A DNA stretch of 33,294 nucleotides from Bacteroidota bacterium (GTDB lineage: Bacteria > Bacteroidota > Rhodothermia > Rhodothermales > UBA10348): assembly GCA_022567305.1 (NCBI GenBank), contig JADFHF010000039.1, forward strand, positions 1 to 33,294, written 5' to 3'. The stretch's first letter is position 1; every line of letters starts with the position of its first letter. Positions 11,985 through 33,294 of this stretch are shown here, one piece after another. A program made the position numbers and the translations under genes. The notes beneath the pieces were generated by a model, which made no database searches, was not told the origin of the DNA, and was given only the letters and a program-made list of their open reading frames with translations.

Positions 11985-14900
11985 TCAGAATAGAAAGCCG
12001 AAGGCGATCGTAAACGTATTATCGTTCTTCGAGAACGCGAAGGTACTGGTTAACACCATGGCCTCGAACGCTTCGAACCACACGCCTCCCCCATATCCGT
12101 TATGCCATTTATCGGATGTTTCGCCGTCGGTCCAGACTCGGCCCTGGTCGACGAACCCCAATACACCGATATCGCCAAATCCAAGGTACCGGGCAATGTG
12201 GAAGAGCTTTCCACGAACTTCAGTGTTGGTGTAGAAGCTGGTCCTTCCCGCAAATCGAGTGCTCCGAAATCCACGTAGGTTTTGCGCCCCTCCTAAAGTA
12301 CTCGCGGAATAAAATGGAAACTCTCCGATGTTGTGCGCACCGCCGGCACGAATAGCAACGGTCCACTGGGGAGACAGAGACGGAGACAGATAGAGTGTCA
12401 TGCTTGGCGCCAGAGTATAGAATGTCTGACTTGCATTGTGCAAACCGATATTAGCGCTCGTATCGAGTTGCAAACGGATGCCTTGTTTAGGGTTTACACC
12501 GCTATCCACGGTTGAAAACGAAACGTTAATTTCTAGACTGCCAAACCACTGCGGGTCGAAAGAGCTGGGCGAGACGCCTGCTTGCGGCTGCCCGACGAAT
12601 CGATCCCCGTCTTCCTCAACATTAGTATAGTTGAATCGGGATCCGACGCTGAGATTAGCTCCCTGGATATTATCCTCCAGTGCTACCCCGATGTTTAAGT
12701 TTGAAAACTGGGCCTGATAAAATTTCGCATCACCTTCTTCGCTGGTCGTCTCGTTTCCCAGGCCGTAGAAGTTGTGGATCGTGTTGGGTGTTAAGACCTC
12801 GCCGGTTAGCCGAACCCCCCATTCGCCGAGGACTTCTGAATAATGGCCGATATATCGGAAATTAAAAGCCTGTGTCTTCGTTGCCATATTGGCCATTATC
12901 TCATGCGTACTGGCATGTGGATTCTTCCTGAATCCGTGACTTGTGATTTTGACACCACCGCCGATGAAGACCCCGTCATCCTTATTTCGTCCAAAAAAGA
13001 GGGTAGGTCGGGTCAGGTTGTAGCTGAAACTATTGCGCTTGTAGGCGTTAATTTTTGTTTCATCGGACCGATAGACTTTCGTCTCGGGCCCCGTCTGCCA
13101 ATAGTTATTTGCATTGGAGTCGTAGATCCGGGTCATCTTCCGATGCCCCTTTACGCGAGAACTGTCCGTGAAGGAATCTTCTCCGGTACCCCCCACAATG
13201 CGAACCAGTATGCCCTTGTCTACAGAGCCATTCACAATGAATCGATCCTGCCCGCCGAGACCGTAGAGCCTAAGCTCTCTGGTTTCCTTGCCGTGAAACG
13301 TGCGCCGATAGAGTTCGCGCCGAATATCGCCTTCCTTCTTGGTTTTGTAGACCACCACCTCCGTACGATCGCCATCAAGTCGCGTAACCTCGAATCGTTC
13401 GTGCTTGTCACTTCCGACGACATCGACGACGGAGGCGAGGATCTGGTAATGCCTTCTCGCTACATCGGGCAGCTTGTCACGACGTATTTTCAGCACCTCC
13501 ATGGTTTTTTCACCGTGAAGATCGAAGACCTCAGGAGGCAGCTGCCGTACGGCCAGTTCGATCACGTCGTCCGTCAGCTGAATCCGAATACTATCGGCGA
13601 TCATTATCCAGTCGCTCTCTGTCAATCCCGAGGTAAATGGACGATCCTGAGCGAAAGAATTTCTGTTGAGTCCCCGGAGATATCCGTAGTGCTTGCGAAA
13701 ATCTTGATAGTTCGGCTGAAACATTAATTTGCCCACGACGCCGAATAATCCGCTGAATCGGTTGAACGCCAGGTCCCGATCCCGGGGTACAGGACGATAC
13801 GACGTTCCTCCATCATCATTTTCAAATGCAGCCCATCGCCACTGGTCCTTGTGCCGATCCCAATCGCTAATTAACATATCCAGGAGGCGTGCCCGGGCAT
13901 ACATACGGCTGTCGACGCGGTTGTCGTTATCTTTGTCGAGTTCTTTGTAGAGCGTCCGATAGCTGACGATGTCTTCGGAAAATCCCATACTGGCAACGTC
14001 CGACATATCGCCGTCCGGACGTTCTTCGAACAGCATGAGTCGCCCGGCCAACCGATCGCGGTAGATTCCCATTCGGGGGTCATCCGGCACCATCACATAC
14101 TTTGGATTGGTGTGGTACACCCCGATCGCATCAGCGAGCGGAGGCACGATGAAGGCCCCATACGGGTGAAACATGGACATTTGGTCCTGAAGGATGCTGT
14201 GTACAAACGTTTCCCGTAGCTCGTGCGACCACATTTTACCGGCAACCTTGTCGATTGAGCGCAGGACATAATCCTTACCGTTGGTACCCTCGAGGCGAAC
14301 CGTGACTGACTGGCCGCTCCCTCCGAATTTCGTAGGGGTGAGTCCGTTTCCTTCACGTGTGAGGTCCAGGAGCGGGTACGAAACGGGGATGCCCCACAAG
14401 TCCCGGTTGTGGCCACCGAAAATGGCTCGTTTTAGAAAACCGGCTTTTGCGTAACGCGGGTTTGCCGCCTGAACCATCGTGCTGTCTTGATAATCTGGAT
14501 ACGATTCTTCGACCGCTAGGACATTAGGGTCCACAATCTCCGGAACCGACTCTTTCAACTGATCGCGGAAAAGCAACCGACCATTGCCTTCCTCATCTCG
14601 TGGCGCCCAGGCCTCCATCCAGATCGAATGGTTTCTATAATAGAGCAGCTTCATGAATCCGGACTCTGAGGCCGTGAAGGCTGCACCATTTTCCGAGGCA
14701 ACAAAGTCAGCGCCAGAGCCGGCCCCGCTAACGAGGTGATGCTGATACCCACGGAACGTTCCTGTTTCGAAATACTGCAGGCTGCGGTCATGGCTGGAGG
14801 CATAAATGAGGTCCTCCTCATCCTTAAAAATCAGCCCCATCTCTTCACGAAGTTCTTTGTACTTCACATGAGCCATGTCCTGCCGTGTACCGATGAATCG

Positions 14901-15713
14901 TCTGTACAATGGGACGACGGAGCCAATCACGGGCAGTGGAGTCAGGTGTGTTTGTGCCGAAAATCTTCCACCGTACTGCCCATTTGAGTGCAGGGGATGA
15001 TGGCCGATCACGAGCAGATCTTTCTTCCGGTTCTTCAAGATTGCATCTTTCAGCTCACGCAAAAAATCGCCCGCTTCATACACGTTGTATTCCCCTGTGT
15101 CTCCGAACGACTTCTCCCCTTGCGTCATCCACCACTGAGTGTCGATGGCCAATAACGTAATCTCTTTCGTCAATTTCACTTTGACCGGACCTGGAAAACC
15201 ATTGTCCGGCAGAAAAACGTTCCCACGGTCGAGGTACGTCTCGACGAACTCTTCCTGATTGTGAAGACGACCAAGGCCACCAGATCGGCCGTTGTCCCAA
15301 TCCAGATTTCCCGGTACAAAAAAGACGTTTCCCCGGAAATTCTTTACCGCCTCCAATTGCGGGATCAAGAGTGCTTCGGCCTTTGCTCTATTTACTGACG
15401 CCGAATCGGGAAAACCAAAATTACCGACCTGATTACCCAAAAATAGAACGGTGCTTTGTTCACCGGCCACGTCAAGTTGAGCTTTGAGTAACGCCAGGAC
15501 GGAAGCGCCTTCCCGAGTTGCCCCACCCGTATTTCCAATCAAAAAGATTCGATAGACGACGTCGGAACCCGGAGGGGGCAACGCACCTCTTGCGCCTCGC
15601 CAATCGTCACGTGCCTCGTCGTCGACAGACATTTTTGTCGATGAGCACGAAGCGAGTAATAACGTACAGCCCAATACATAGGACAGCCGGTAGAAGAATC
15701 TCATGGAATCCAT
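11985..15713 (-). CDS. Lipoprotein with degenerate metallophosphoesterase domain fused to an outer-membrane barrel
   Basis: 1242 residues; a second Met at residue 4 (15704) is an equally good start. The signal ends in lipobox L-A-S-C (Cys23). Residues 52-345 align with a Bacteroidota calcineurin-like phosphoesterase type, but the metal-ligand motifs are altered: GDxG is GNTG (60-63), FLGDN is FLGNQ (91-95), PGNHDW is PGNLDW (134-139), and SGHEH is SSHDR (306-310). Only GHHPLHSNG (237-245) is intact. A long middle region follows (to about 880, with GLGGQDRFIVNG and VRIVGGTGEDSF repeats). The C-terminal 330 residues form a BamA/surface-antigen-like barrel ending in alternating hydrophobics (TFAFSKNDNTFTIAFGFLF). 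The protein should be an outer-membrane protein with a periplasmic or surface domain that has probably lost hydrolase activity. Confidence 0.88.
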   Translation of the reverse strand: MDSMRFFYRLSYVLGCTLLLASCSSTKMSVDDEARDDWRGARGALPPPGSDVVYRIFLIGNTGGATREGASVLALLKAQLDVAGEQSTVLFLGNQVGNFGFPDSASVNRAKAEALLIPQLEAVKNFRGNVFFVPGNLDWDNGRSGGLGRLHNQEEFVETYLDRGNVFLPDNGFPGPVKVKLTKEITLLAIDTQWWMTQGEKSFGDTGEYNVYEAGDFLRELKDAILKNRKKDLLVIGHHPLHSNGQYGGRFSAQTHLTPLPVIGSVVPLYRRFIGTRQDMAHVKYKELREEMGLIFKDEEDLIYASSHDRSLQYFETGTFRGYQHHLVSGAGSGADFVASENGAAFTASESGFMKLLYYRNHSIWMEAWAPRDEEGNGRLLFRDQLKESVPEIVDPNVLAVEESYPDYQDSTMVQAANPRYAKAGFLKRAIFGGHNRDLWGIPVSYPLLDLTREGNGLTPTKFGGSGQSVTVRLEGTNGKDYVLRSIDKVAGKMWSHELRETFVHSILQDQMSMFHPYGAFIVPPLADAIGVYHTNPKYVMVPDDPRMGIYRDRLAGRLMLFEERPDGDMSDVASMGFSEDIVSYRTLYKELDKDNDNRVDSRMYARARLLDMLISDWDRHKDQWRWAAFENDDGGTSYRPVPRDRDLAFNRFSGLFGVVGKLMFQPNYQDFRKHYGYLRGLNRNSFAQDRPFTSGLTESDWIMIADSIRIQLTDDVIELAVRQLPPEVFDLHGEKTMEVLKIRRDKLPDVARRHYQILASVVDVVGSDKHERFEVTRLDGDRTEVVVYKTKKEGDIRRELYRRTFHGKETRELRLYGLGGQDRFIVNGSVDKGILVRIVGGTGEDSFTDSSRVKGHRKMTRIYDSNANNYWQTGPETKVYRSDETKINAYKRNSFSYNLTRPTLFFGRNKDDGVFIGGGVKITSHGFRKNPHASTHEIMANMATKTQAFNFRYIGHYSEVLGEWGVRLTGEVLTPNTIHNFYGLGNETTSEEGDAKFYQAQFSNLNIGVALEDNIQGANLSVGSRFNYTNVEEDGDRFVGQPQAGVSPSSFDPQWFGSLEINVSFSTVDSGVNPKQGIRLQLDTSANIGLHNASQTFYTLAPSMTLYLSPSLSPQWTVAIRAGGAHNIGEFPFYSASTLGGAQNLRGFRSTRFAGRTSFYTNTEVRGKLFHIARYLGFGDIGVLGFVDQGRVWTDGETSDKWHNGYGGGVWFEAFEAMVLTSTFAFSKNDNTFTIAFGFLF

Positions 15714-17260: not shown

Positions 17261-18472
17261 TCAGAGATCTTCGACGAATAAGTGATCCAATTTTGTTGCT
17301 TTGGTTTTCAAATAGCGCATGTTCTCGGGACTCGATTCTATTCGGAGTGGTACGCGTTCGACCACCCGTACTTGATTTGCCTCCAGATCAGACACCTTGT
17401 CTGGATTGTTCGTCATTAAGCGAACGCTTGAGATTTCCTGATCCCGGAGAATCGCTGCCGCGACCGCATAACTACGTTCATCCGGTGAAAAGCCCAAACA
17501 CACATTCGCATCGACGGTGTCCAACCCTTTGTCCTGCAGCGCATACGCTCTAATTTTGTTGATGAGACCAATCCCGCGTCCTTCCTGACGCAAATAAACC
17601 AGATATCCTTCGCCTTCATCCACGATCCTTGCAAGCGCGCTGTGCAGTTGCTCTCCACAGTCGCAGCGAATCGACCCCAACACGTCGCCAGTCAGGCACT
17701 CCGAATGCAATCGAACTAATGGGGAATCCGTTTGCCGACGGCCATGACTGAGGAACAGGTGTTCATTGTTGTCTCGGTCTCGATACGCGGTGACGGTGAA
17801 GTGGCCGAAGCGAGTGGGCAAGGCCGCCGAGTCAACACGCGTGACGGCTTCTTTTGCGGTATGATGAAGACGGTACTGCACAATATCTTCGATCGATATC
17901 ATTCGAAGATTATGGACGCGGGCAAACTCACTTAGCCTCGGCCGTCGGGCCATCGTACCATCGTCGTCCAGTATCTCGCAAACAACCGCAGCCGGAGCCA
18001 GGTCAGAAAGCATCATTAGATCAATTCCGGCCTCCGTATGACCTCTTCTTGCCAGCACCCCCTGTGGATGGGCGCGCAACGGGAATACGTGCCCCGGCAT
18101 CACGATATCATCAGACGTACTGGTTGTGTCGACGAGCGTTTTGATGGTTCGCGATCGATCATGGGCGGATATGCCCGTCGTCACTCCTGTTTTCGCTTCC
18201 ACTGATACCGTGAAGGGGCTTCCATATCGCGTTCCGTTCTCCTTTCCCGAAACCATCATCGGAATCCCCAGACGGTCCAACACCTTTCCGGTCATGGCGA
18301 TGCAAATGAGTCCGCGCGCTTGGCGAGCCATGAAGTTGATGATCTCCGGCTCGGCAAACTGGGCTGGGACGAGCAGATCGCCTTCGTTCTCTCTATCATG
18401 ATCATCCACAACGATTACGGGCTTAGCTGCCTGTAAATCGCTAATGATTTCGTCTATCGTATTGAATTTCAT
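17261..18472 (-). CDS. ribBA: Bifunctional 3,4-DHBP synthase / GTP cyclohydrolase II
   Basis: 403 residues. The N-terminal half (1-203) is RibB, which turns ribulose 5-phosphate into DHBP and formate. [11 protein letters not shown] (23-33) and [20 protein letters not shown] (127-146), with the catalytic acidic residues and His, are intact. The C-terminal half (205-400) is RibA, which opens GTP to the pyrimidine. Zinc ligands are Cys259, Cys270 and Cys272 in [18 protein letters not shown], and [15 protein letters not shown] (296-310) holds the catalytic Arg. Both active sites look functional, unlike some lineages where one half has decayed. It supplies both branches of the pathway. It lies 8 bases after the ribE stop and 34 bases before ribH. 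Confidence 0.97.
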
Positions 18473-18480
18473 GGTTAATT

Positions 18481-19125
18481 TTAGTTGTACCCGTGTTCGG
18501 ACAGAAATTTCTGGCTGATGACACCGTCAGTGTCGAAACGGCGGGAGATCATCTTTTCGACATACTTCGCTAGTATGTCGACTTCGACATTCACACGATA
18601 TCCGATGCGCCGACCGCCGAGCATCGCGTGCTTTTGCGTATAGTCAATCAGCATGATTGAGAAGCCGTTCTCGAAGACGTCTACGACCGTCAGGCTAATG
18701 CCGTCGAGTGCGATGAATCCTTTGGGCACGATCCACCGCAACAGCGCCTGGTCAACGTGGACCGTAACCCAGAGTGAATCCTGTTCCGGGCGAAGCGCCA
18801 CGAGCACGCCCGTTGCGTCGATGTGTCCTTGAACAAAATGTCCTCCCATCCGGCTCGTAGGCGTTAGCGATCGTTCCAGGTTCACACCGTCTCCCACTTC
18901 CGCGCTACCAAGATTCGTACGCGAGAGCGTTTCGGGCGCAACGCAGACAGAAAACGCGTCGGAAGTTAGCTCGGTGACGGTCAGGCAAGTGCCGTTAACG
19001 GCAATGCTGTCTCCGAGTCTGCATCCATCGACAACCGACGGGGCTCGGAACGTCATCTGGTATCCGGCGTCTGTTTTCTGGATGCGCTTCGTCGTGCCTA
19101 TCGCTTCAACAATTCCCGTGAACAT
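18481..19125 (-). CDS. ribE: Riboflavin synthase, alpha chain
   Basis: 214 residues from ATG at 19125. This start is chosen because the family invariably begins MFTGIVE; a longer frame to 19143 adds six non-family residues. The protein has two related barrels. The first has CRLGDSIAVNGTCLTV (35-50), the second has PKGFIALDGISLTVVDV (134-150), and GGHFVQGHIDATG (94-106) lies at the junction. It dismutates two molecules of 6,7-dimethyl-8-ribityllumazine to riboflavin plus the aminopyrimidine. In the second barrel, where many members have 'IPHT..HTTLG', this one reads IDYTQKHAMLG. The start lies inside the 3' end of ribD (20-base overlap), so the two are translationally coupled. Confidence 0.95.
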   Translation of the reverse strand: MFTGIVEAIGTTKRIQKTDAGYQMTFRAPSVVDGCRLGDSIAVNGTCLTVTELTSDAFSVCVAPETLSRTNLGSAEVGDGVNLERSLTPTSRMGGHFVQGHIDATGVLVALRPEQDSLWVTVHVDQALLRWIVPKGFIALDGISLTVVDVFENGFSIMLIDYTQKHAMLGGRRIGYRVNVEVDILAKYVEKMISRRFDTDGVISQKFLSEHGYN

Positions 19126-20248
19126 TCTCGTTCTCCGTTCCATTTGATTGCATGATGTAACCTCTAATCAGAACGTCTTCCCCGAATTTTTCCAGACTTG
19201 TTTTAACCAGACGCGTGGCCTCAGCAGGCCGCGGAACGCCGTTGCCGTGAACAGGAGTGAGTGCCGCAGAGCCACCTATAATGATCGGAGCGACGAATGC
19301 CCATAACTCCTGTACATGTCCTTCGTCGAAAAAACTGCCAAGTGCCTCCGCCCCGCCTTCGACCAGAAGGCTCCTGGTACAGCGATCACTGAGCTCATCG
19401 AGGAGAGCCGATAGTTCAACTTTACCGGTAGCGGTCGCAGGAAAAGTCCATACTTCGACACCCCGTTCTTCGAGCGTGCGCCTGTGCTCGTCGGACATGG
19501 CATCGGTCGTGGCCACAACCGAACCGCCGGACATCTCAGAATCAAACAGAGCGGATTCAATCGGCACGCGGCCCTGACTATCCAGCACGATTCGTCTCGG
19601 TTGAGAACCTTCGTATGCCGTTATTCGCACGGTCAGGTGCGGATTGTCCGAAATGGCCGTGCCGGCCCCTACGAGGACCGCATCAACGACACGCCGAAGA
19701 TTGTGAACTTCAGCGCGGGAGGCAGCTCCCGTTATCCACTGGCTCTCGCCGGTATGCGTGGCGATTTTCCCGTCCAGGCTCATCGCGAACTTGGCTACCA
19801 CGTAGGGCCGTCCGGTCCGAACCGCATGGAAGTAAAAGCGGTTCAGGTGCCGTGCTTCTTCCCCGCACAGACCCTCGTGAACGACGAGTCCGGCATTCTC
19901 CAAATACTCATGTCCACCCCCGGACACTGACCGATTAGGATCCCGCACTGCGTAATTCACTTGAGCGACACCGGCTTTTACAATCGCCTCCGTACAGGGC
20001 GGCGTCCTGCCCGTATGGTTACAGGGCTCGAGTGTCACATACAGGGTCGCATTCAAAGCGAGATCCCCGGCTTCGCGAAGGGCTTCGACTTCAGCGTGGG
20101 GAGCGCCGGCCCGGGTGTGATACCCCTCACCTACGACTCTGCCGTCTCGAACGATGACGGCACCGACAGCCGGGTTGGGACTCGTCTGCCCTTCCGCCAG
20201 CCGCGCAAGCGCCAGCGCTCGTCTCATATGTCGTTCCTGCATGGACAT
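19106..20248 (-). CDS. ribD: Bifunctional deaminase/reductase of riboflavin synthesis
   Basis: 380 residues from ATG at 20248, preceded by GGAG at a 9-base spacing. A frame to 20323 would add 25 residues not found in the family. The N-terminal deaminase (1-145) has the zinc site HAEVEAL (His51, catalytic Glu53) and PCNHTGRTPPC (Cys76, Cys85). The C-terminal reductase (147-375) has VVAKFAMSLDGKIAT, WITG and the LLVEGGAEALGSFF motif that binds NADPH and the ribityl substrate. It converts the RibA product to 5-amino-6-ribitylaminouracil phosphate in two steps. It is the first gene of the operon, downstream of an FMN riboswitch and terminator. Confidence 0.96.
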   Translation of the reverse strand: MSMQERHMRRALALARLAEGQTSPNPAVGAVIVRDGRVVGEGYHTRAGAPHAEVEALREAGDLALNATLYVTLEPCNHTGRTPPCTEAIVKAGVAQVNYAVRDPNRSVSGGGHEYLENAGLVVHEGLCGEEARHLNRFYFHAVRTGRPYVVAKFAMSLDGKIATHTGESQWITGAASRAEVHNLRRVVDAVLVGAGTAISDNPHLTVRITAYEGSQPRRIVLDSQGRVPIESALFDSEMSGGSVVATTDAMSDEHRRTLEERGVEVWTFPATATGKVELSALLDELSDRCTRSLLVEGGAEALGSFFDEGHVQELWAFVAPIIIGGSAALTPVHGNGVPRPAEATRLVKTSLEKFGEDVLIRGYIMQSNGTENENVHGNC

Positions 20249-20404
20249 AAAAAAACGCTCCAAAGAGACCTTCGGAACGTGAGAACGTGGCGGGATGAAC
20301 CGGATGCGCGGCTGCCAATGCACCGAGCATCCTGATAAGACGCGCCTGACGCCGGTCCCTCGAACTGAACCTTCAAATTCGAAAGTAGCGTCAGATGTTG
20401 ATTA

Positions 20405-22879: not shown

Positions 22880-23341
22880 ATGTCTATTTTCGATCTGACC
22901 GTCAACGGAAAACCACATCAGGTTGATGTCGTCTCGGATACCCCGATGCTGTGGGTATTGCGGGAGCATTTGAATCTGGTGGGCGCCAAATATGGATGTG
23001 GAATCGCCCAGTGTGGGGCTTGCACGATCCATCTTGACGGCATCGCCGTGCGGTCCTGTTCAGTGCCCGTGTCCAGTGTGGGCAATCGGGCCGTCACCAC
23101 CATCGAAGGCCTTTCGCCTGATGCCAGCCATCCGTTGCAAGAAGCCTGGCTGGAACATGACGTCCCCCAATGCGGCTATTGCCAGACCGGCCAAATCATG
23201 AATGCAGCGGCGCTCTTGCGGAAGAACCCTAATCCCAGCGACGATGAAATCGAGCGAGGCATGCAGGGTAATCTCTGTCGGTGTGGCACCTACATCCGCA
23301 TACGAGCAGCCATCAAGACGGCTGCTGCTAACATGGGCTAA
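22880..23341 (+). CDS. 2Fe-2S subunit of a xanthine-oxidase-family molybdenum hydroxylase (IorA-like)
   Basis: 153 residues, full length. The N-terminal ferredoxin-like domain binds one cluster with Cys40, Cys45, Cys48 and Cys60 ([16 protein letters not shown]). The C-terminal four-helix domain binds the second with Cys98, Cys101, Cys133 and Cys135 (QCGYCQTGQ and NLCRCGTY). It passes electrons from the molybdenum centre of the partner subunit to an external acceptor. The next gene begins 27 bases later and encodes the partner. Isoquinoline 1-oxidoreductase and aldehyde oxidases are the nearest named types, and substrate cannot be told apart from sequence. The subunit has no export signal and would be carried across the membrane bound to its Tat-exported partner. 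Confidence 0.93.
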
Positions 23342-23368
23342 TCCCTTTTCATTCGTACGAGAAAAACC

Positions 23369-25582
23369 GTGGCGATCATCAATTCGACTTACAACAGACG
23401 GTCCTTCTTAAAGGCTTCTGCGCTGGCCGGCGGCGGCATGATGCTTGGCTTCAACTGGTTGGCCGGATGCAATCCTTCGCCCGTAGCCGTCAAAGGCATG
23501 CCTGAGACGTGGAGTGGCATCAATGCCTTCTTGAAAATTGGAGAGAATGGCCTTGTGACCATCATGTCTCCCAATCCTGAAATCGGACAAAATGTAAAAA
23601 CATCCATGCCCATGATCGTGGCCGAAGAATTGGACGTGGATTGGAAGGACGTGATCGTTGAACAGGCGGGCCTAGACACCCAGAACTTTACACGTCAACT
23701 GGCCGGCGGAAGTCAATCGATTCGTCGGGGATGGCAAAGCCTCCGGATGGCAGGGGCGACCGCACGGAGAATGCTCCTCGAAGCGGCTGCTAAACGGTTG
23801 GATGTACCTGTGGGAGAATTGACGACAGACGCCGGAGTCATCAAACATGAACCGAGCGGGCAAACGCTCGGGTACGGCGACGTTGCATCCGATGCTGCCT
23901 ATGTCAGCGTCCCCAAAAACGTACAGTTGAAGGATCCCAAAGATTTCAAAATTATCGGGTCGGACAGAAAAAATGTTGACGCGCCAAAAATTGTGAGAGG
24001 AGAGCCACTCTTCGGGCTGGATTATCATAAGGAGGGTATGTTGATCGCGATGATCGAACATGCCCCTGCTTTCGGGATGAAGCTGAAGTCGCTGGACGCG
24101 ACCGAAGCGAAAGCCCTGCCCGGGATCAAAGATGTGATCACCATCAACGCGGCGCCGGAAGGATTCAATCCGCAGTGGTCTGACGTGAATGCTTTCCCGG
24201 AGAAGGTGGTCGTTGTCGGCCGATCTACCTGGGAGGTCATGAAAGCCAAAAAGGCCCTACGTATTGAATGGGAAGTGGACACCAGACTCGAGAGCAGTGC
24301 CGACCATGTGCTCGGCATGAGCCAATTGTTAAGAGATGCCAAGGTCGAGCCTTCACGTAAAGACGGTGATCCTGACGCGGCCTTTCAAAATGCGGCGACG
24401 GTCATCGAGCGAACGTATAGCGCCCCCTTCCTCGCGCACAATACCATGGAGCCGATGAACTTCTTCGCTGACGTGAAAACGGAATCGGCAGAACTCGTAG
24501 GCCCTATACAAACCCCGGAATATTTGCGCACGTCGGTGTCAAGACTACTCGGTCTACCGGAAGAGAAGATTTCCATCCAGATGACGCGGATGGGAGGAGG
24601 TTTTGGACGTCGATTGTATGGGAATTTCGGTGTAGAGGCGGCTCTCATTTCCCAGACGGTTAGGGCCCCGGTAAAGCTGGTTTACACCCGCGAAGACGAT
24701 ATGACGCAGGGTACGTATCGCCCGGCCTATCGGGTAACCTATCGCGCAGCGTTAAACGAAAGCAATGAATTAATTGGCTTCCACGTCAGAGGGACCGGAG
24801 TTCATGGTAGTCCCGTGTTTGCTAACCGATTCCCAGCCGGCACGGTCGATAATTATTTGGCGGAGAATATCACTTTCGAATCCAATATTTCAACGGGTGC
24901 GTGGCGTGCGCCCCGGTCCAATTTTATTGCCGGCGCCGAGCAATCGTTCCTGGACGAAGTGGCGGAGGCAGCCGGTAAAGATCCCATCGCCTTCAGATTG
25001 GAGCTATTCGATAGAGCGATCACCGACCCCGTCGGCGAGGACAATGATTATGACGCAGCGCGCTACGCGGGAGTGCTCGAGTTAGTCAGAGAAAAAGCCG
25101 ATTGGGGAGCGGAAATGCCAGGGGTTCACCGCGGAGTCTCCGCTTATTACTCTCATAATACCTACGTCGCACAGGTCGTGGATCTCGTCCTTGAAAACAA
25201 TCAGCCCAAGGTGCGAAAAGTATGGTGCGCGGTGGATTGCGGGATTGTCATCAATCCGGACGGGGCCCGAAATCAGATTGAGGGCGGTATTGTGGACGGC
25301 ATCGGCCATGCGATGTATAGCGCGCTGTCGTTCGAGAATGGTAAACCGGATCAGAATAACTTTAATCGCTACCGGTTAATTCGCAATCCTGAAGCGCCGA
25401 AAGAAATCGAGATCCATTTTGTGGACAACGGAATCGACCCGACCGGCTTGGGAGAGCCATCCCTGCCTCCCATCTCAGCCGCCGTCGCTAATGCCGTGGC
25501 CCAGGCCACCGGGAAGCGCCTATACGAGCAGCCGTTTATTAGCAACGAGACGGTCTTTGAGCTGAGAGAAGTAACCGGATGA
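23369..25582 (+). CDS. Molybdopterin-binding subunit of a Tat-exported aldehyde/isoquinoline-type oxidoreductase (IorB-like)
   Basis: 737 residues from GTG at 23369. NRRSFLKASALAGGGMMLGF (9-28) is a twin-arginine signal, so the enzyme should act in the periplasm. The rest is the xanthine-dehydrogenase-family molybdopterin domain in the single-chain IorB arrangement: TRMGGGFGRRLYGNFGVEAA (about 402-421) binds the cofactor, VWCAVDCGIVINPDGARNQI (about 617-636) is conserved, and GLGEPSLPPISAAVANA (about 697-713) carries the catalytic Glu. It hydroxylates an N-heterocycle or oxidises an aldehyde using water oxygen. No FAD subunit and no cytochrome c subunit follow, since the next gene is convergent 30 bases away; the electron acceptor must be encoded elsewhere. 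Confidence 0.93.
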   Translation: MAIINSTYNRRSFLKASALAGGGMMLGFNWLAGCNPSPVAVKGMPETWSGINAFLKIGENGLVTIMSPNPEIGQNVKTSMPMIVAEELDVDWKDVIVEQAGLDTQNFTRQLAGGSQSIRRGWQSLRMAGATARRMLLEAAAKRLDVPVGELTTDAGVIKHEPSGQTLGYGDVASDAAYVSVPKNVQLKDPKDFKIIGSDRKNVDAPKIVRGEPLFGLDYHKEGMLIAMIEHAPAFGMKLKSLDATEAKALPGIKDVITINAAPEGFNPQWSDVNAFPEKVVVVGRSTWEVMKAKKALRIEWEVDTRLESSADHVLGMSQLLRDAKVEPSRKDGDPDAAFQNAATVIERTYSAPFLAHNTMEPMNFFADVKTESAELVGPIQTPEYLRTSVSRLLGLPEEKISIQMTRMGGGFGRRLYGNFGVEAALISQTVRAPVKLVYTREDDMTQGTYRPAYRVTYRAALNESNELIGFHVRGTGVHGSPVFANRFPAGTVDNYLAENITFESNISTGAWRAPRSNFIAGAEQSFLDEVAEAAGKDPIAFRLELFDRAITDPVGEDNDYDAARYAGVLELVREKADWGAEMPGVHRGVSAYYSHNTYVAQVVDLVLENNQPKVRKVWCAVDCGIVINPDGARNQIEGGIVDGIGHAMYSALSFENGKPDQNNFNRYRLIRNPEAPKEIEIHFVDNGIDPTGLGEPSLPPISAAVANAVAQATGKRLYEQPFISNETVFELREVTG

Positions 25583-25612: not shown

Positions 25613-26884
25613 TTATCGGGCCAGCTTGACAAATTTCACCTGGCTCGAGAGCGATCCCGTCGATACGCGTACGAAGTAAATTCCCGCCGGAAGGCTCCGC
25701 GTATCTACGCGAATCCTCGTTTCGGCCAATCTGTCGGGCCAGACATGCACTGACGACTGTTTTCTTCCGAGAACATCGTATACCTCGACAAGCAGAGCCT
25801 CAAACGTGACCGTTTTGACCGTGAATTCGAGTTGATCCACGGTGGGATTTGGATATAGATTTGAAATTCGTAATCGCGTAGGGATCTCGTCCGCCCGATC
25901 GGTGCCTGTGTTTGTGGGGAATATGAACCGAGCATACACAGGCATATGATCGGAGGTCGTATTTACATAGTTGGGAATTTCAGTAAGGACGGACTCGAGG
26001 CGGGCAACAGAGCCTGCCTCATAGTGTGCAAAAAGTTCGTCCGTGATGAGAATATGGTCGATCGTAGAACCGCCCGAGCACGTTGGACTACTGAAGCAAA
26101 ACGTACTGATATTTTGTTGATCCAGAGGCAGACTCGTGAAATCGAAATCGCTCGGATCGTCGGAGAAATTTTCATAAGGGGACGGGCTTCCGATTCGGAT
26201 TGAGGCCAATAGTTCATCATTGAAATCGCCCGCGATAATGACCGATTCGCTCGCAAGCGATGTAAAATCGATGTGTATTTTGAGTCGCTCTGACGCTTTA
26301 ACTCTTCTTTCATACGACGATGAATCAGAACAGCATTTCATGTGAACAGTAATCACCGTCGTTCTAACGGTCGTATCCGGAAGATTTACGTCTATTTCTA
26401 TTTGTAGCGGTGGTCGCCCTGCGAAATAATTTAGCGGTTGATTGGTGCTTGTAGAGAACGACTCCAGAATATGTTTTGGTGGTTTACGCAGCTGAACGAC
26501 GTCCGTGTTGAAAATGAAGGCGATGCGCTGCGTCACAAGCGTCGTAGCGAGTAAACCATCCCATGGACCTCCCAACGAATCCAGCAGCTCCTGAAACTGG
26601 CGCGTGTCCGAGATTTCCTGCAAGGCCCATAAGTCGATACCCGATTCCCGAATGACTTTTTCAACGTTTTCCCGCTGTTGATCGACGTCCGACGGCCCAT
26701 TTCCGGAACCCGTATTTCCAAACCACTCGATATTCCAGGTGGCCACGTCGAACGTTTCGGCTGAACCAACAGGTGTGATGGACTGAGAATGGGCTGTGGG
26801 AATCCACGAAAAAGTCAGGAAAACGACCACAATCGTCGCGAATATCAACTGCGGTCGACCATGAGAGCTCATCGTGCTTCTCAC
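25613..26884 (-). CDS. Secreted endonuclease/exonuclease/phosphatase-family protein with type IX sorting domain
   Basis: 423 residues. A signal peptide covers about residues 1-34 (IFATIVVVFLTFSWIPTAHS). Residues 43-322 form the EEP (DNase I-like) fold with catalytic motifs WNIEWF (50-55), LQEI (88-91), AGDFNDE (218-224), IDHILI (275-280) and SDHMPV (311-316). All metal and catalytic residues of the family are present. Residues 343-423 (LYPNPTVDQLEFTV to SSQVKFVKLAR) are a type A C-terminal sorting domain of the type IX system, so the protein is exported to the surface or medium. Substrate could be nucleic acid or a phosphodiester or lipid. The start is GTG at 26884 in a GTGA overlap with the previous stop; ATG at 26872 is an alternative. 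It is the last gene of the coupled operon. Confidence 0.92.
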   Translation of the reverse strand: MRSTMSSHGRPQLIFATIVVVFLTFSWIPTAHSQSITPVGSAETFDVATWNIEWFGNTGSGNGPSDVDQQRENVEKVIRESGIDLWALQEISDTRQFQELLDSLGGPWDGLLATTLVTQRIAFIFNTDVVQLRKPPKHILESFSTSTNQPLNYFAGRPPLQIEIDVNLPDTTVRTTVITVHMKCCSDSSSYERRVKASERLKIHIDFTSLASESVIIAGDFNDELLASIRIGSPSPYENFSDDPSDFDFTSLPLDQQNISTFCFSSPTCSGGSTIDHILITDELFAHYEAGSVARLESVLTEIPNYVNTTSDHMPVYARFIFPTNTGTDRADEIPTRLRISNLYPNPTVDQLEFTVKTVTFEALLVEVYDVLGRKQSSVHVWPDRLAETRIRVDTRSLPAGIYFVRVSTGSLSSQVKFVKLAR

Positions 26885-28188
26885 TCGAAGTCTGTATTCA
26901 GACGAAATCGGGAAATGCGGTTGTTGCCCGTGTCAGCGACGTACACGATTCGATCAAAATAGGCAACACCGAGCGGTCGATTGAACTCAGATGCTCCATC
27001 TCCGGATCCGCCAAACGAGACGACGACCGGTTTTGTGGATCGAGAGCCCGGCGGCGGCGCCACGCCTTCAATACCCGCCGCTGTGAACACGAATAAGCTG
27101 TCGTTTCCCGCGTCCAGTACAAACAGGTAATTGGTTTCATCCGCAGCGACGGTTATGTCGGTCGGATTGGAAAACTTAAACTCGTCGTAGAGAAACCCGT
27201 CCCCTCGATCCGGATTGGCAGCGACTTGTAACTTCTCCGGGTCAGATTGATAAACGATTCCATCCGTTGTCAGCACTGCTCTAATTGAGAGCAGAGAAAA
27301 TCGGAGAGGTGAAATCGGCGGTTCTCCACCACCAATCACGTCATTTGCAATCGGCGATTGTGCGAGAAGAAAATGTAGCGTTTGTGAAAAGAACGATCGC
27401 TGAGGTGGTTGAACAAACGTGGCAATATCGGTAGGATAAAGCGCACTCCTGAGGCTTTCTCTGGTTGGATGCAAAGAGGGAATGGCCTGAAGATTTCTTC
27501 CTTCGGGAGTGAACTCGAGTACCGCATTATGAGGCAGAATGACTGACGAACGAACATTTACAGGCCCGCGACGACTCACAAAAATATGGTTGTTGTATAG
27601 AACACCCACGCCCGTGAATGAAACCTCTTCGTCCGTGTCAATGGGATCGGGTTTACTGAATTTTCTCGAGTCCTCGTCAAACGGGTGCCAGATGATGTCG
27701 GCCAGCACGGCCGTGCTCCCCACGAGTTGATCGTAATGAAGCACCACGGGGAGATTCCAGTTTCGACCATTCAAAAAAGTGTCGCGCTTCGCCGTGACGT
27801 AAACATGCAGACGGCGATCTTGAACAACTGAGGTTCCACCTCCTGGGATCTCATAGAAGGCGCTCCCGCGTCCGGCTCGATCTAACACGTGCAAGCCGCG
27901 ATTGTCTACGATGTAGATTAATTCGTCATACCCGACGTAAACGTCCTTTGGCTGGTCCAGAGGCGCTCCATCTGCTCCGTTGGAGAAGAACGGAAAAAGG
28001 GGGACGTATTCGACCTCGTTGATGAGCCCGGGCTCGCGGCGACCCGCCTCGAAGATTTCCTCTGTTGTCGCGTCCTGCTTTGAACCAATCAGGTCATCAC
28101 ACCCTGTCATTAGATATCCAACAGCAAAGAACACAATCACTCCGACGCGGGACATCCCAGTAATTCGATATCTCTGCTGGCTTGCCAT
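26881..28188 (-). CDS. NHL-repeat beta-propeller lipoprotein
   Basis: 435 residues from ATG at 28188. The signal ends in lipobox L-M-T-G-C (Cys30); an internal ATG at 28155 would give a more standard signal length. The mature protein has repeated blades of the NHL/6-bladed propeller type. The clearest are DVYVGYDELIYIVDNRGLHV, DITVAADETNYLFVLDAGND (with SLFVF) and PLGVAYFDRIVYVADTGNNR (with ISRFRLN). Such propellers bind ligands or partner proteins and sometimes act as lactonases; no catalytic residues can be assigned. Its ATG overlaps the stop of the preceding PorV-like gene (TGATG), and its stop overlaps the nuclease start. Confidence 0.88.
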   Translation of the reverse strand: MASQQRYRITGMSRVGVIVFFAVGYLMTGCDDLIGSKQDATTEEIFEAGRREPGLINEVEYVPLFPFFSNGADGAPLDQPKDVYVGYDELIYIVDNRGLHVLDRAGRGSAFYEIPGGGTSVVQDRRLHVYVTAKRDTFLNGRNWNLPVVLHYDQLVGSTAVLADIIWHPFDEDSRKFSKPDPIDTDEEVSFTGVGVLYNNHIFVSRRGPVNVRSSVILPHNAVLEFTPEGRNLQAIPSLHPTRESLRSALYPTDIATFVQPPQRSFFSQTLHFLLAQSPIANDVIGGGEPPISPLRFSLLSIRAVLTTDGIVYQSDPEKLQVAANPDRGDGFLYDEFKFSNPTDITVAADETNYLFVLDAGNDSLFVFTAAGIEGVAPPPGSRSTKPVVVSFGGSGDGASEFNRPLGVAYFDRIVYVADTGNNRISRFRLNTDFE

Positions 28189-29249
28189 CAAAACGCGAGG
28201 TTTAATCCAAATCGATGTACGTCGCCCAAACGCTGTAACTGATTGAAGGCGTAGTCAATTCGATAATTTGAACCTAGATATGGAATGTGGAGACCGACGC
28301 CCAGGCTGGGTATCGTAAACTCTTCGACTCCAAAACGATAACCCACCCTGAAAACGATGATGTCGTGCCACCCGTATTCGAGGCCCATATTGAAATTTTC
28401 CGAATTGTCACTCGGATTATTGAGCTGGGCGGACACCAGCAAGGAGTTGTTCGGATTGTCTTGTAAAACCTCATAGACGGTTCCGAGGTGAAACGTAGTG
28501 GGCGGGGTAATCCTTTCGAAATCGGTTTCTGTCTTTATTGGATCATCCGCGATGACGATGCGCTCAATACTTCCATCCGGTCGGCCATCAAACCCAAAAT
28601 TCCTCACCGAGACGGCCATTTTCGCACCCGTCGTACCAATTTGATAGAAAATACCCATATCGAATACGACGGTACTTGAAGAAATTCCTGCAACGCTTTC
28701 GCGAACGTATTTAGAAGTGATGCCGTAGCTGAACAAGTCGGTCAGGCGCTGAGATATCGTCAGACCGGCTGCAATATCCGTGAGTCGAAACGTTTGGCCC
28801 GTTCCAAATGGTTGAAACTCAGTCGTCACATCCATCTCTCCCGAGTTCAAGGTCTGAAGACTGGCGCCCACCGTGATATTGGAACCCGGTAGCGGATAGG
28901 AAAGAGCCACAAATTCAAGATTTACATCGACGAAATAGGCTGTATGATAAAACCCTACCTGGAGTCCATCCAATAATGAGACTAGCGCCGGATTCCAGAA
29001 CAGAGTACTGGCGTCCGATGCCGAAGCCACGACCGATTCGCCGAGAGCCGCTGCGCGCGCGTCCACTGGAATTTTAAGAAACTGAAATCCTGACGTGCCT
29101 GAACGCTCGTTACCCAACGCGGGAAGAAGCTGCGCATATACTGCGCTATCTGAAAACGTAACTAGACTGCAGAAAAGAAAGACGACCCACCCGATATGAG
29201 CTCTCTGCTCGTCGCTTCCTGATCGATATGTCCTGCTAGAATACATCAT
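28188..29249 (-). CDS. PorV/PorQ-family outer-membrane protein
   Basis: 353 residues with a signal peptide to about residue 40 (ending SAVYAQ). The family signature is the start of the mature part: GTSGFQFLKIPVDARAAALG, then ESVVASASDASTLFWNPA. This is the pattern of PorV/PorQ proteins of Bacteroidota. The remainder alternates amphipathic strands (VGASLQTLN, GITSKYVRES, FRVGYRFGVEEFTIPSLGVG) of a FadL-like barrel and ends RFGLNLAF. Characterised PorV shuttles type IX cargo to the surface; this one is embedded in a TonB-receptor operon and may be dedicated to it or to the nuclease encoded downstream. It starts immediately after the receptor's stop codon. Confidence 0.9.
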   Translation of the reverse strand: MMYSSRTYRSGSDEQRAHIGWVVFLFCSLVTFSDSAVYAQLLPALGNERSGTSGFQFLKIPVDARAAALGESVVASASDASTLFWNPALVSLLDGLQVGFYHTAYFVDVNLEFVALSYPLPGSNITVGASLQTLNSGEMDVTTEFQPFGTGQTFRLTDIAAGLTISQRLTDLFSYGITSKYVRESVAGISSSTVVFDMGIFYQIGTTGAKMAVSVRNFGFDGRPDGSIERIVIADDPIKTETDFERITPPTTFHLGTVYEVLQDNPNNSLLVSAQLNNPSDNSENFNMGLEYGWHDIIVFRVGYRFGVEEFTIPSLGVGLHIPYLGSNYRIDYAFNQLQRLGDVHRFGLNLAF

Positions 29250-32216
29250 TCAAAATTGGAACGACAAGCCGAAAATGATGTGACGCTGAGGCAGGAAGCG
29301 GGCGGGATTGAATGGGGGTAGACCGCCCGAATTCGGATCATCGTAGCGAGGATCTCTCGTGCCCATCTCCACATCATATTCCGAATTGCCTCTCAGTCCC
29401 GTGAAATCTGTTGTGGCCACATTCACATCGGGGTAGGCCTCTCCCGTAACCGGGTTTACAATGATGCTGTTCTTTTGATTGAACAGATTCGTGATTTCCA
29501 AGGTCAGTATTACATCCGTTCCAGCGACGCGGACCGTACGCAGAAAATTCATATCAAACCACCACCAGGCCTTCCCGATCTCCGAGAGTCTTTTTGCAGG
29601 ATCAGAAACCCTTTCATAAATGGGTCGCCAGTCCGATTCCCCCGAAAATGGATTGACCTCATTCCCGCGGAATACGACCGGCGTATATCGCTGTCCACTT
29701 CTGTAGGTGGACGCGAGGTAAACCTGGAACTGGTTCAACCCCGGAATTCCGAGTAAGGGTCTCGCCTTTTCGTGTGTGAACGTAACACTGGCTTTCACGT
29801 CGACGGGACGATCCCAGGCAAGAGGCGTTTCAAAGGTGTTATCGATATCCCCGTTAGCCAGGAACTGACTCAGCGCGTCATTATTGGTAGAACTCAGTCC
29901 CGTTGCTCGAGAGAAAGAGGCCGAAACTTGACCTTGGAACCATCTTCCTACCCTTTTCAGATAACTGGCTTCGACGCCTCGAACACGTGCAAAATCAGCG
30001 TTGATACGAAAAGCGCGGGATACGTCGCGTCCAGTGGGGTCCTTTACAATCACGCGCTGGACCGTAATAAAGTCGAATTTGTCGCGCCAGAACGCCGTAA
30101 GGTTCAGAACATCGTTACCGGTGAACTGCGTTCTCAGCCCAAGTTCGTACGATATGTCGACTTCCGGGTCCAGATTTGGATTACCCAGGTCCGAGAAAAA
30201 TGATCGGTCCTGGAAAAACGGATCGAGGCCCGTGTAAACAAACGTCGGATGCGGAATTTTGGTAGAGTGTCCGTAATTGAAAAACAATACTCGATTCTCT
30301 TTGATCGGAAATGAAACGCGAATTTTCGGAAGTAATCTGAATTTGGTGCGCAGTCCCAATAGACCAATCGTAGCATCCTTGTATGCTTCTCTGACGGTGT
30401 CCAAAATGGGGGCTTGCGGGTCATCGATCAGATCGTCCACGTAACGACCCGGAGACCACGATTCCAGACGCGCACCCAGATTGGCGATAAGACCCCGATG
30501 ACGGATCTGGTGAGTACCGAACAAGGCAGCTCTTCTCGGTTTTACGCGCCAGATATCTGAACTCGCTCCGAGTCGATTTGAGCTGGCGCCCTCGGTGTCC
30601 GTGCCGATTGGAGCACCTACCCACGGGCGGATCACATCAATCCACTGATAGTCGTTGAGCTTTAATTCAAAACCGACCTCTGATCGACCGTTCATGCTCT
30701 CTGTGAATCGTGTGTAGGATCCTCGGATCGTTATTTCCTCAGCAAAATGGTCGTGGAAGCGCGTCGCTATTCCGCCGTTATTGAAAAGGCCCGGTCCGGG
30801 TAGAATGAAGAGCGCGTTCGGATCCAGCGGATTTCCACTGTTGTCGACGAACACGTTTGCCGGAAACGTCACAATACTCTCAGGGTTGAGCTCCGTGTCG
30901 ACATTATCCGGTCTCCAGTCTCGACCATTTGCATCGGCCCGCAACTTGGTAAACAATCGACTTACCTGGACGTCGTAGAAAGACCGGTCGTTTAGAACGT
31001 GGGACCACTTCAAAAATGTGATAATATTGTCATGCGCATAGGTATTGGCATTTTCCGGCTGAAGGATAAACGCGTATTGAAATCCTGGAGCAACCACTGC
31101 ATCGTTTCCGGTCACCTGCAACATCCGCGTATTCTGATTTACGGTGAACGAACGCTGATACGATCCTTGAAGCCGCATCCCCGGTTTGACTTCGTAGGTC
31201 AGCTTCGAAATTCCATTCCAGCGGTTCCCCGTTCTAGGCATAAAAAAGGAACTCTCCAGCAGAGAGGTGCGCACCTGCTCAGGCGTGGCCGTCTCCCGCG
31301 TGAACCCGTCCGAAAGTTGAACCTGACCCGAGAGGAAGAATCGAAGTTTTCCACGAACGATGGGACCCCCCAAGTTGAACTCGAAAATCTCTTCCATGAA
31401 ATTCGAATCCGCGCTGCCATTAAATCCCAGATTGTCTCGTTTGTGCGAAAAGAATCCACTTAAATTGTCCGTGCCGTCCCGGGTTCGCACAGCAACCACG
31501 CCGGAGGTTACATCGCCCACCTCAGCGCCAATACCCCCGGTTGTTACTTCAATATCTCGAAAGGCATTCGATCCAATATCTAGGCCGAATCCGGTCCCGG
31601 CGAGAGGGTCTTTGGCCGATACACCGTCCACAAAAAAGCCCGTTTCATCTGCACGGCCGCCTCGGATATAGAGTCCGGTTGGATCTCTGACCACTCCTAC
31701 CTGCGTAGCAACGGCGGCCTGTACATCGCGAAGGGGTGCTACGGCTAGTTGTTCGCGCGAAATCGTTGTGCGGGACGCTGAGTTTTCTACGTCAACGAGT
31801 GGTCGATCGCCAATCACGATAATTTCATTGTCGGTAGAAAGGACAGCCTGCTTCAGTGTCACCTCCAATGAAGTCGTTTGTCCGTCCTCGACGAAAATTC
31901 CTGTGAACAGCTTGGTCGCGAAACCGATGTAAGAAACGCGGACCGAATACTCCCCGGAAGCGAGATTACTGATCGTAAATCGGCCATCTAGATCAGTGGC
32001 GCTACCGAGTGATGTACCTACGACGATGACGTTAACACCGATGAGCGATTCGGTCGTCTCTTCGTCATGTACCGTTCCGGCAATGTGGCCCTGTGCGAAG
32101 GCTTTACTGAACGGCAACGCAATGAACATCAGTGCGATGAGGAGGGCCCGTGTCTGTGAAGGCCACCCTCGGGTACCGTGATATATGCGATATGTGCGGA
32201 ATCGGTGGTGCATCAT
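29250..32216 (-). CDS. TonB-dependent outer-membrane receptor with carboxypeptidase-regulatory-like domain
   Basis: 988 residues. The signal peptide ends near KAFAQ (42). Residues 43-125 are a carboxypeptidase D regulatory-like beta-sandwich (GHIAGTVHDEETTESLIGVN, TDLDGRFTISNLASGEYSVR). The plug follows at about 140-250 (QVGVVRDPTGLYIRGGRADE, FFVDGVSAKDP, VEVGDVTSG-like end). The rest is a 22-strand barrel, ending in HIIFGLSFQF with a C-terminal Phe. Family members import siderophores, cobamides, oligosaccharides or peptides using TonB energy. There is no SusD-like partner here, which speaks against a classic glycan locus. The start lies in an ATGA overlap with the upstream stop; a second ATG follows directly. 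Confidence 0.94.
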   Translation of the reverse strand: MMHHRFRTYRIYHGTRGWPSQTRALLIALMFIALPFSKAFAQGHIAGTVHDEETTESLIGVNVIVVGTSLGSATDLDGRFTISNLASGEYSVRVSYIGFATKLFTGIFVEDGQTTSLEVTLKQAVLSTDNEIIVIGDRPLVDVENSASRTTISREQLAVAPLRDVQAAVATQVGVVRDPTGLYIRGGRADETGFFVDGVSAKDPLAGTGFGLDIGSNAFRDIEVTTGGIGAEVGDVTSGVVAVRTRDGTDNLSGFFSHKRDNLGFNGSADSNFMEEIFEFNLGGPIVRGKLRFFLSGQVQLSDGFTRETATPEQVRTSLLESSFFMPRTGNRWNGISKLTYEVKPGMRLQGSYQRSFTVNQNTRMLQVTGNDAVVAPGFQYAFILQPENANTYAHDNIITFLKWSHVLNDRSFYDVQVSRLFTKLRADANGRDWRPDNVDTELNPESIVTFPANVFVDNSGNPLDPNALFILPGPGLFNNGGIATRFHDHFAEEITIRGSYTRFTESMNGRSEVGFELKLNDYQWIDVIRPWVGAPIGTDTEGASSNRLGASSDIWRVKPRRAALFGTHQIRHRGLIANLGARLESWSPGRYVDDLIDDPQAPILDTVREAYKDATIGLLGLRTKFRLLPKIRVSFPIKENRVLFFNYGHSTKIPHPTFVYTGLDPFFQDRSFFSDLGNPNLDPEVDISYELGLRTQFTGNDVLNLTAFWRDKFDFITVQRVIVKDPTGRDVSRAFRINADFARVRGVEASYLKRVGRWFQGQVSASFSRATGLSSTNNDALSQFLANGDIDNTFETPLAWDRPVDVKASVTFTHEKARPLLGIPGLNQFQVYLASTYRSGQRYTPVVFRGNEVNPFSGESDWRPIYERVSDPAKRLSEIGKAWWWFDMNFLRTVRVAGTDVILTLEITNLFNQKNSIIVNPVTGEAYPDVNVATTDFTGLRGNSEYDVEMGTRDPRYDDPNSGGLPPFNPARFLPQRHIIFGLSFQF

Positions 32217-33294
32217 CGCCTGGGAAATCCAAGACTCTCGAGAATTAGTTTGATGGCGTCTTTCGGTGCTTCTGGATTTCCGTCGGCTCCCGTCAAAACC
32301 TGGATTCCCGACTGGTCATTGATCATCGGAAGAGCAAAAAGTGCGACCCGCTGGTCCGCGCTGATGGACGCGATGGTAGCCGGGCCAAACCAAGGTCCTT
32401 GACGAGTGCCAATTCGGGTGATATACGTGTATTCCGCGCTATATAGGGCGATAGAATTGGCCCCCTGAATGACATATGGGAGCGTGTTAAGAATAAAAGC
32501 ATCGGTTTTCAGGGCTGGTAAGGGCGTTGAGACCGACGGAAGAGGAGAACTCGATGTAATGCCTGCATTTGTAACAAGACGTAGGGACTGCCGAAGTGAA
32601 TCGGGGAACGTAATCATTTCCGAAAGCGGCAGAAGAAGGATCGCAGCATTGCCGAGATTCTCTTCGGGATTTGCCGGTAGCGAAACCGGACTATGGACCA
32701 TCATCTTCCCTCCGTTCTCAAAAAACAGATCGGTGACCGAAGCCGCGAAAGGAAGGTTATTACTGGTGATTTGATCCGTGGTGTTCGTGGAGACCCAGTA
32801 GATGTATCTGAAGTTCTCGAGCATCCGTCGCAGCGTAGGGTTCGCATTCGGCGGCAACAGGTTGGATCGTGGTACGTTTCCTCCCGAGCCGGATACAAAG
32901 GGGGTTGTGATGGTCCAGACATCGATCGGCTCGTTCGCGCCTACGTACTCATGAAGCAGATCCAGATGAAACGCCTGCACCGTCGGATTACTGGCTAACC
33001 GGAAATCGTTCACGTACAGAATATCACTGGTTTGCCGTTTCGTAAACCAGGTGAACTCTTGTCGAACGCTTGTCGTATCCGTTGCGTCAACGGCGCGGAG
33101 ATAAAGCGTATTCTCTGCATCCAGTCGCCAGCCCGGCACGAAAATGGAGGTGCTTTCGTAACCCCTGCCAAGAAATACGCGGCCTTCGACTTCGACTTGA
33201 GAGGCGTCATTGATGTCAACTTCTCCTCTAAACGTGGCGAATTCTGTATCCGGAGGAAGGCTTACGAACGACGTACTATCGTTGAAGCTGACAT
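32213..33294 (-). CDS. Large secreted or periplasmic protein, GATase-like domain, 5' end outside the window
   Basis: The frame is open to the right edge, so at least 360 residues are visible and the start is missing. The first visible part looks like Ig-like or fibronectin-type strands (FATFRGEVDINDASQVEVEG, RVFLGRGYESTSIF, NTLYLRAVDATD). From about TSDILYVNDFRL the pattern changes to alpha/beta: TVQAFHLDLLHEY, a short PIDVWTI, LENFRYIYWVST, then VTDLFFENGGKMMVHSP. This order is like the glutamine-amidotransferase-like domains of Bacteroidota surface proteins, but no catalytic triad is evident. I do not recognise a named family. It is the upstream member of the coupled operon and overlaps the receptor gene by 4 bases. 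Confidence 0.8.
   Translation of the reverse strand, partial: VSFNDSTSFVSLPPDTEFATFRGEVDINDASQVEVEGRVFLGRGYESTSIFVPGWRLDAENTLYLRAVDATDTTSVRQEFTWFTKRQTSDILYVNDFRLASNPTVQAFHLDLLHEYVGANEPIDVWTITTPFVSGSGGNVPRSNLLPPNANPTLRRMLENFRYIYWVSTNTTDQITSNNLPFAASVTDLFFENGGKMMVHSPVSLPANPEENLGNAAILLLPLSEMITFPDSLRQSLRLVTNAGITSSSPLPSVSTPLPALKTDAFILNTLPYVIQGANSIALYSAEYTYITRIGTRQGPWFGPATIASISADQRVALFALPMINDQSGIQVLTGADGNPEAPKDAIKLILESLGFPRR

Follow-up and report, generated by a model that had tools for sequence, protein, structure and literature searches.

Homology and conserved gene order show that a complete contig of 33,294 bases from a bacterium of the order Rhodothermales (G000:C31, hereafter the window) ends within a conserved seven-gene surface operon, itself a member of a multi-copy family of loci in which a TonB receptor, a G1-type protein and a PorV-family barrel are combined with cargo of the type IX secretion system (T9SS). 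Five genes of the operon lie in the window and are designated A to E, whereas G1 and G2, two further surface proteins, are encoded upstream of A in relatives. We propose, with a confidence a little short of an even chance, that their products constitute a surface complex binding, cutting and importing a polymer, extracellular nucleic acid being the putative substrate, either as food, in the form of nucleotides or phosphorus, or for transformation.

A conserved seven-gene surface operon

The open reading frames (ORFs) of genes A to E, called mechanically, all lie on the minus strand and overlap or abut, as stated in the preliminary description of this DNA. A and B have ATGA in common (32213-32216), B and C abut as TGA-ATG (29250/29249), C and D meet in TGATG, with the ATG start of D at 28188 and an alternative TTG start at 28191, and D and E have GTGA in common (26881-26884). 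The spacing at A/B (-4), B/C (-1) and C/D (-4) recurs in the genomes of many relatives, so that these tight junctions are not due to chance; the D/E spacing is variable (-8 to +119). The junctions point to co-transcription and coupling, but the fixed stoichiometry that had also been deduced from them cannot be shown by junctions alone.

Because gene A is broken off by the contig end and G1 and G2 are found upstream of it in relatives, the genes of the window are only the 3' portion of an operon that extends further, and its initial delimitation as a five-gene unit was an artefact of the contig end. The suggested search for the same gene order in relatives, conducted through profile searches of about 40 neighbourhoods and 80 named genome loci, recovered a single order, G1-G2-A-B-C-D, in Rhodothermales and Balneolales, with E following D in most Rhodothermales; conservation therefore extends beyond the strain. 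Named carriers comprise Roseithermus sacchariphilus, metagenome-assembled genomes of Rhodothermus, Gracilimonas mengyeensis and several Balneola. Within the order, identity to the window copies ranged over 61-80% for B, 50-69% for C, 46-72% for D, 33-62% for A and 37-53% for E. Of 394 genomes from the phylum, 72 have a match to D, a single-copy gene, at an E-value of 1e-20 or less. Several families of the order have lost the operon; presence and absence calls are uncertain where genomes are fragmented. Bacteroidia keep only C and D, adjacent in 28 of 30 loci (L134-L163), the other five genes being absent. These loci identify C-D as the oldest unit, G1-G2-A-B-C-D being the Rhodothermia unit and E the most mobile member. 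The most conserved partner of D is thus C, and not the receptor.

Orthologues of E are single copy and closely follow C. Over 60 relatives, both genes were present in 44 genomes, C alone in one, E alone in one and neither in 14 (Fisher p about 1e-11, uncorrected for shared ancestry, related genomes not being independent). The cut-offs were set after the gap in scores had been seen (E-values below 1e-90 for C and below 1e-60 for gene E), and one genome counted as lacking both (G012) has a fragment of E. Losses in f4, f13, f14, f15 and G042 suggest several events, and the co-occurrence holds where E is displaced, either elsewhere in the genome (f9, G056) or directly upstream of G1 (G037). The shared task attributed to these genes is supported both by the conserved gene order and by this near-perfect co-occurrence. 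An E orthologue in a genome without a C orthologue was located at L204 (G045:C24:41408-42568). In Balneolales, one E homologue was present in all 22 genomes tested (270-337 bits), frequently at a great distance from the operon, although in several of the f17 and f19 genomes it lies within about 20 kb.

As regards the encoded proteins, E matched Exo_endo_phos (57.5 bits; cut-off 24.5) and Por_Secre_tail (38.9 bits) and the genome encodes type IX machinery (SprA, 1887.6 bits; PorU, 992.1 bits), which agrees with its earlier designation as a putative type IX-secreted EEP (DNase I-like) enzyme. Residues N51, E90, H181, D220, N222, D312 and H313, which correspond to catalytic residues of EEP enzymes, are invariant in 20 Rhodothermales orthologues, and by this alignment the catalytic site of E is intact. 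The MnuA subfamily model scored 27.5 bits, below its cut-off of 185, and a PDB search with E gave a chance match only. In G2, a type A sorting tail of the type IX system scored above its cut-off (34.5 bits), and OB-like modules are present. DUF5689 was above the Pfam cut-off in G2 of two Balneolales, while G2 of another carries a lamin-tail domain (LTD), and the three Balneolales E proteins scanned with Pfam all combine DUF5689 (just under cut-off in one) with EEP and a type IX tail. In a comparison with hhalign, the DUF5689 region of Balneolales E could be matched to G2 along 176 columns (P 7e-9).

No Pfam family was found above cut-off in A. Its full-length relatives, of about 540 amino acids, consist of a lipobox cysteine, FN3-like domains and a C-terminal alpha/beta domain resembling class I amidotransferases. 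The first Foldseek comparison of the AlphaFold model (mean pLDDT 85.9) was dominated by the FN3 domains, and a second look gave the amidotransferase-like domain, residues 269-540 approximately matching HisH/GATase chains at Z about 12 (rmsd 3.4-4.1, 185-208 aligned residues), which indicates a shared fold only. Since the only conserved cysteine in the alignment is that of the lipobox, the domain is probably not catalytic. G1 matched no Pfam family, and its model (pLDDT 72) had no convincing structural match.

Contig C69 of the same genome was considered as the missing upstream piece and rejected. The whole contig (L168, 4,774 bp) has a complete gene A of its own and the initial part of B, with 80% DNA identity to window positions 31984-33294, and in its G2 the N-terminal part is swapped for unrelated sensor-like sequence. 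It may represent the contig of a close relative or a second copy, possibly chimeric.

A multi-copy module of receptor, G1 and PorV-family barrel

The description of B as a TonB-type receptor is sustained by a CarboxypepD_reg domain, by Plug (30.9 bits; cut-off 23.9) and OMP_b-brl_3 (50.6 bits; cut-off 27) matches, and by the region EIIVIG, conserved among relatives as dEiV.vGerPLvDVE, which would correspond to the TonB box. The SusC/RagA model TIGR04056 scored 58.5 bits on B, below its cut-off of 368.25. SusD, reported as missing from the outset, was matched by none of the operon proteins in family scans, and the single SusD_RagB match in the genome lies on another contig.

C scored above the PorV/PorQ family model NF033709 (180.8 bits; cut-off 90), with PorV 6h3i as its PDB match, and below both equivalog models (T9SS_OM_PorV, 67.6 bits, cut-off 250; PorQ, 98.1 bits, cut-off 220). 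The PorV of the genome (292.5 bits) adjoins PorU on contig C107, which rules out C as the PorV of the T9SS; PorQ (260.3 bits) is likewise found elsewhere. The label 'PorV-like' given to C consequently holds as regards family membership and fails as regards identity with the type IX PorV. For D, an NHL match (30.3 bits), profile matches to NHL propeller chains and the lipobox TGCDD uphold its description as a propeller lipoprotein.

Eight PorV-family genes were found in the genome, including PorV, PorQ and a PorV2-like gene just under cut-off; C and two others adjoin a TonB receptor. At PorV-paralogue loci of seven other genomes, a receptor, a G1-like protein and a PorV-like barrel occurred in that order in 20 out of 20 cases, these being the best-scoring loci on long contigs and not a random sample of the PorV family. 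A type IX cargo gene was present alongside nearly all of them, and PorV, PorQ and PorV2 of the T9SS themselves lie outside such modules. With 24-48 TonB receptors per genome (and 0-7 SusD proteins), the chance of a receptor within three genes is about 0.07 per locus, so that the 20 cases are far outside chance, related loci not being independent. The alignment of B with the module receptors is full-length (842 columns, P 1e-95), C scored 151-230 bits against module proteins and G1, more weakly, 33-99 bits; the gene order of the window operon is unlike that of the module. These comparisons place B, G1 and C as deep paralogues within a multi-copy module, of which no description was found in the open-access library searched.

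The cargo of the module varies, comprising Amidase_2, glycoamylase PF10091, LTD with LamG, the starch-binding CBM_20 (just under cut-off) and PPC. Since cargo differs per module, as it does in polysaccharide loci, the OB/DUF5689 protein G2 and the EEP enzyme E point to nucleic acid in the window operon. Modules with cargo of the peptidoglycan amidase type (Amidase_2) were observed in several families (L185, L186, L190) and are candidate peptidoglycan-scavenging loci; a module copy in the genome of the window itself (L078) has the same gene order. Copies whose type IX cargo is a putative glucoamylase (PF10091; L191, L200) would constitute SusD-less polysaccharide loci.

Features of the window

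Table 1. Coordinates of the operon genes and their features in the window (aa, amino acids)
Feature	Position	Strand	Evidence
Gene A, 3' part only, 359 aa: surface lipoprotein	32213..33292	-	alignment, contig end
Gene B, 988 aa: TonB-type outer-membrane receptor	29250..32216	-	Pfam CarbopepD_reg_2, Plug, OMP_b-brl_3
TonB-box-like motif EIIVIG of B, residues 131-136	31809..31826	-	conservation
Gene C, 353 aa: PorV/PorQ-family beta-barrel	28188..29249	-	NF033709
Gene D, 435 aa from ATG at 28188: NHL/beta-propeller lipoprotein	26881..28188	-	NHL, lipobox TGCDD
Gene E, 423 aa: putative secreted EEP (DNase I-like) enzyme, T9SS type A tail	25613..26884	-	Exo_endo_phos, Por_Secre_tail
EEP catalytic domain of E, residues 48-313	25946..26743	-	Pfam match, orthologue alignment
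T9SS type A sorting tail of E	25625..25858	-	TIGR04183 48.3 bits

Other genes of the window include a two-subunit molybdenum hydroxylase on the plus strand (2Fe-2S and molybdenum cofactor subunits, 22880-25582), 30 bp from the convergent end of E. On the minus strand lie riboflavin genes (RibD, lumazine-binding protein and a RibBA fusion, 17261-20323), with overlapping RibD and lumazine-binding ORFs, and a gene for a protein of 1242 amino acids with a C-terminal Omp85 domain (11985-15713).

Proposed nucleic acid uptake and alternative functions

According to the proposed mechanism, G1, G2 and E would be exported through the type IX system and kept by barrel C and lipoprotein D at the surface beside B. 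The polymer would be bound by the OB-fold/DUF5689 modules of G2 and by lipoprotein A and cut by E, and the DNA or oligonucleotides would then be imported through B, energised by TonB. We infer the physical complex, the type IX export of G1, the ligand and the direction of transport. Use of extracellular nucleic acid, as initially put forward for this cluster, gains independent support from OB/DUF5689 in G2 and Balneolales E and from a comparable trio of genes, for a barrel, a DUF5689 protein and an EEP enzyme, in another lineage.

A pair with the domains of the first two is known from natural transformation. A transposon screen in Riemerella anatipestifer identified a CarboxypepD_reg beta-barrel and an adjacent DUF5689 protein as both essential for the process (PMC8459023), and transformation was impaired in tonBA and tonBB mutants, the tonBB effect being ascribed to iron (PMC8383284). 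At 20 DUF5689 loci of other Bacteroidota, a barrel of about 850-950 amino acids was found beside a DUF5689 lipoprotein in nearly all, and an EEP gene close by in 12, the same motif search giving 0 in 849 kb of control loci; judging from domains and adjacency, these loci would be orthologous to the R. anatipestifer genes. RA0C_RS04915/RA0C_RS04920 of R. anatipestifer encode a CarboxypepD_reg barrel next to a DUF5689 surface protein, often joined, in the loci of this type considered here, by an EEP gene; in the window operon the comparable domains are those of B and of G2, the latter with DUF5689 above cut-off in Balneolales only. Neither a PorV-like barrel nor a propeller lipoprotein, and no counterpart of G1 or A, was found beside the transformation-type barrel, and the DUF5689 protein of the loci considered is a lipoprotein, whereas G2 is type IX cargo.

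Other systems share part of this composition. Extracellular EEP nucleases of the ExeM/MnuA type carry OB and LTD domains, and similar modules occur in the operon, in Rhodothermales on separate polypeptides (G2, E). SusCD polysaccharide-utilisation loci or utilisomes likewise encode a TonB receptor, surface binding lipoproteins and a surface enzyme in one operon, and occur as several paralogous loci with differing enzymes; the window operon lacks SusD, has a G1-like protein and a PorV-family barrel, and its enzymes would exit by type IX secretion. A receptor locus tied to organic phosphorus is represented by the phosphorus-regulated loci of Bacteroidetes (PMC8115612), which are SusCD-like, unlike the window operon; nothing found here ties the regulation of the latter to phosphate.

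Several observations weigh against nucleic acid uptake. The EEP class is wider than nucleases and includes phospholipases and other phosphodiesterases. In G2 of the order to which the window belongs, DUF5689 was below the Pfam cut-off or undetected, so that its assignment there rests on profile-profile comparison. Survival of C-D in Bacteroidia without the other genes means that the pair must have a use of its own. The match between the transformation-type barrel and B is limited to CarboxypepD_reg and plug (215 columns, against 842 for the module receptors), which does not support full-length orthology and makes the trio a functional parallel that need not imply a common origin. ComEA-like proteins, present in 55 of 60 relatives, occur also in f4, f13, f14 and G042, all without the operon, and do not discriminate competence. 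Finally, an Rfam scan of 142 kb gave no RNA element besides tRNAs upstream of the operon, and no cobalamin riboswitch.

The domain match with the essential R. anatipestifer pair, the defects of the tonB mutants and the frequency of ComEA-like proteins would also suit a dedicated natural-transformation machine of Rhodothermia, in which the operon would serve outer-membrane DNA uptake for competence and feed ComEA/ComEC, with E only trimming or nicking DNA. We consider this unlikely, given that ComEA-like proteins persist without the operon, that the barrels are not homologous over their full length, and that a nuclease made together with the receptor suits degradation at least equally; no report of competence in Rhodothermales or Balneolales was found in the open-access library searched. 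The retention of C-D as the sole part in Bacteroidia, the membership of C in the PorV/PorQ family and the unusually high conservation of B are in turn what would be expected if C-D were a PorV-type anchor or shuttle for type IX cargo and B an accessory barrel for envelope upkeep that imports nothing. Such a role in general surface assembly appears improbable in view of the CarboxypepD_reg domain, plug and TonB-box-like motif retained by B, the enzyme cargo that varies from module copy to copy, as fits nutrient loci, and the loss of the operon in several families of the order.

A different ligand, such as an iron chelate, haem, a vitamin or a phospholipid head group, would leave E and G2 to clear biofilm DNA or attack phospholipid, merely as co-transcribed genes. 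BtuB-BtuG complexes for vitamin B12 likewise pair a TonB receptor with a surface lipoprotein encoded together with it (PMC10404256). The fold of BtuG, as that of D, is a propeller. In addition, B gave low-score matches to haem and siderophore receptor models. These matches are nevertheless far under every curated cut-off, and D, unlike BtuG, travels with C even where the receptor is absent; given also the nucleic acid-related cargo (G2 and E) and the Rfam result, we regard a different ligand as quite improbable. A pairing similar to C-D, in which a FadL-family barrel is bound to a surface lipoprotein, is known from BamG and BamH of the beta-barrel assembly machinery of Bacteroidota (PMC12611786, PMC12578637). 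The model NF053685 for BamG, which formed part of the searched library as its weak matches to other PorV-family proteins indicate, did not list C at an E-value of 0.1 or less, whereas the PorV family model gave 180.8 bits. D is an NHL propeller, while BamH is described as crescent-shaped. Both BamG and BamH are reported to occur throughout the phylum, but several families of the order lack C and D. A role of C-D as BamG/BamH, ruled out by these family models and absences, is to be given next to no weight.

The passage of DNA across the outer membrane of Bacteroidota in the absence of any known pilus-based device is an open question on which the operon bears, and specific uptake loci in SusD-poor lineages are, as far as found, undescribed. 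We tentatively suggest, in full awareness that the balance leans against so broad a scheme, that the uptake loci of Rhodothermia without SusD may form a family, a TonB receptor acting in each with a G1-type surface protein and with a PorV-family barrel that retains substrate-specific type IX cargo at the surface, and that the window operon may be its ancient single-copy member for nucleic acid, a pilus-free outer-membrane route for DNA whose principle would be common to the transformation genes of other Bacteroidota. Since cultured genera such as Balneola and Gracilimonas carry this operon, in which OB-fold and nuclease cargo accompanies a TonB receptor, both questions are directly testable; if the module is real, the type IX cargo would make the substrate of many unannotated receptor loci predictable.

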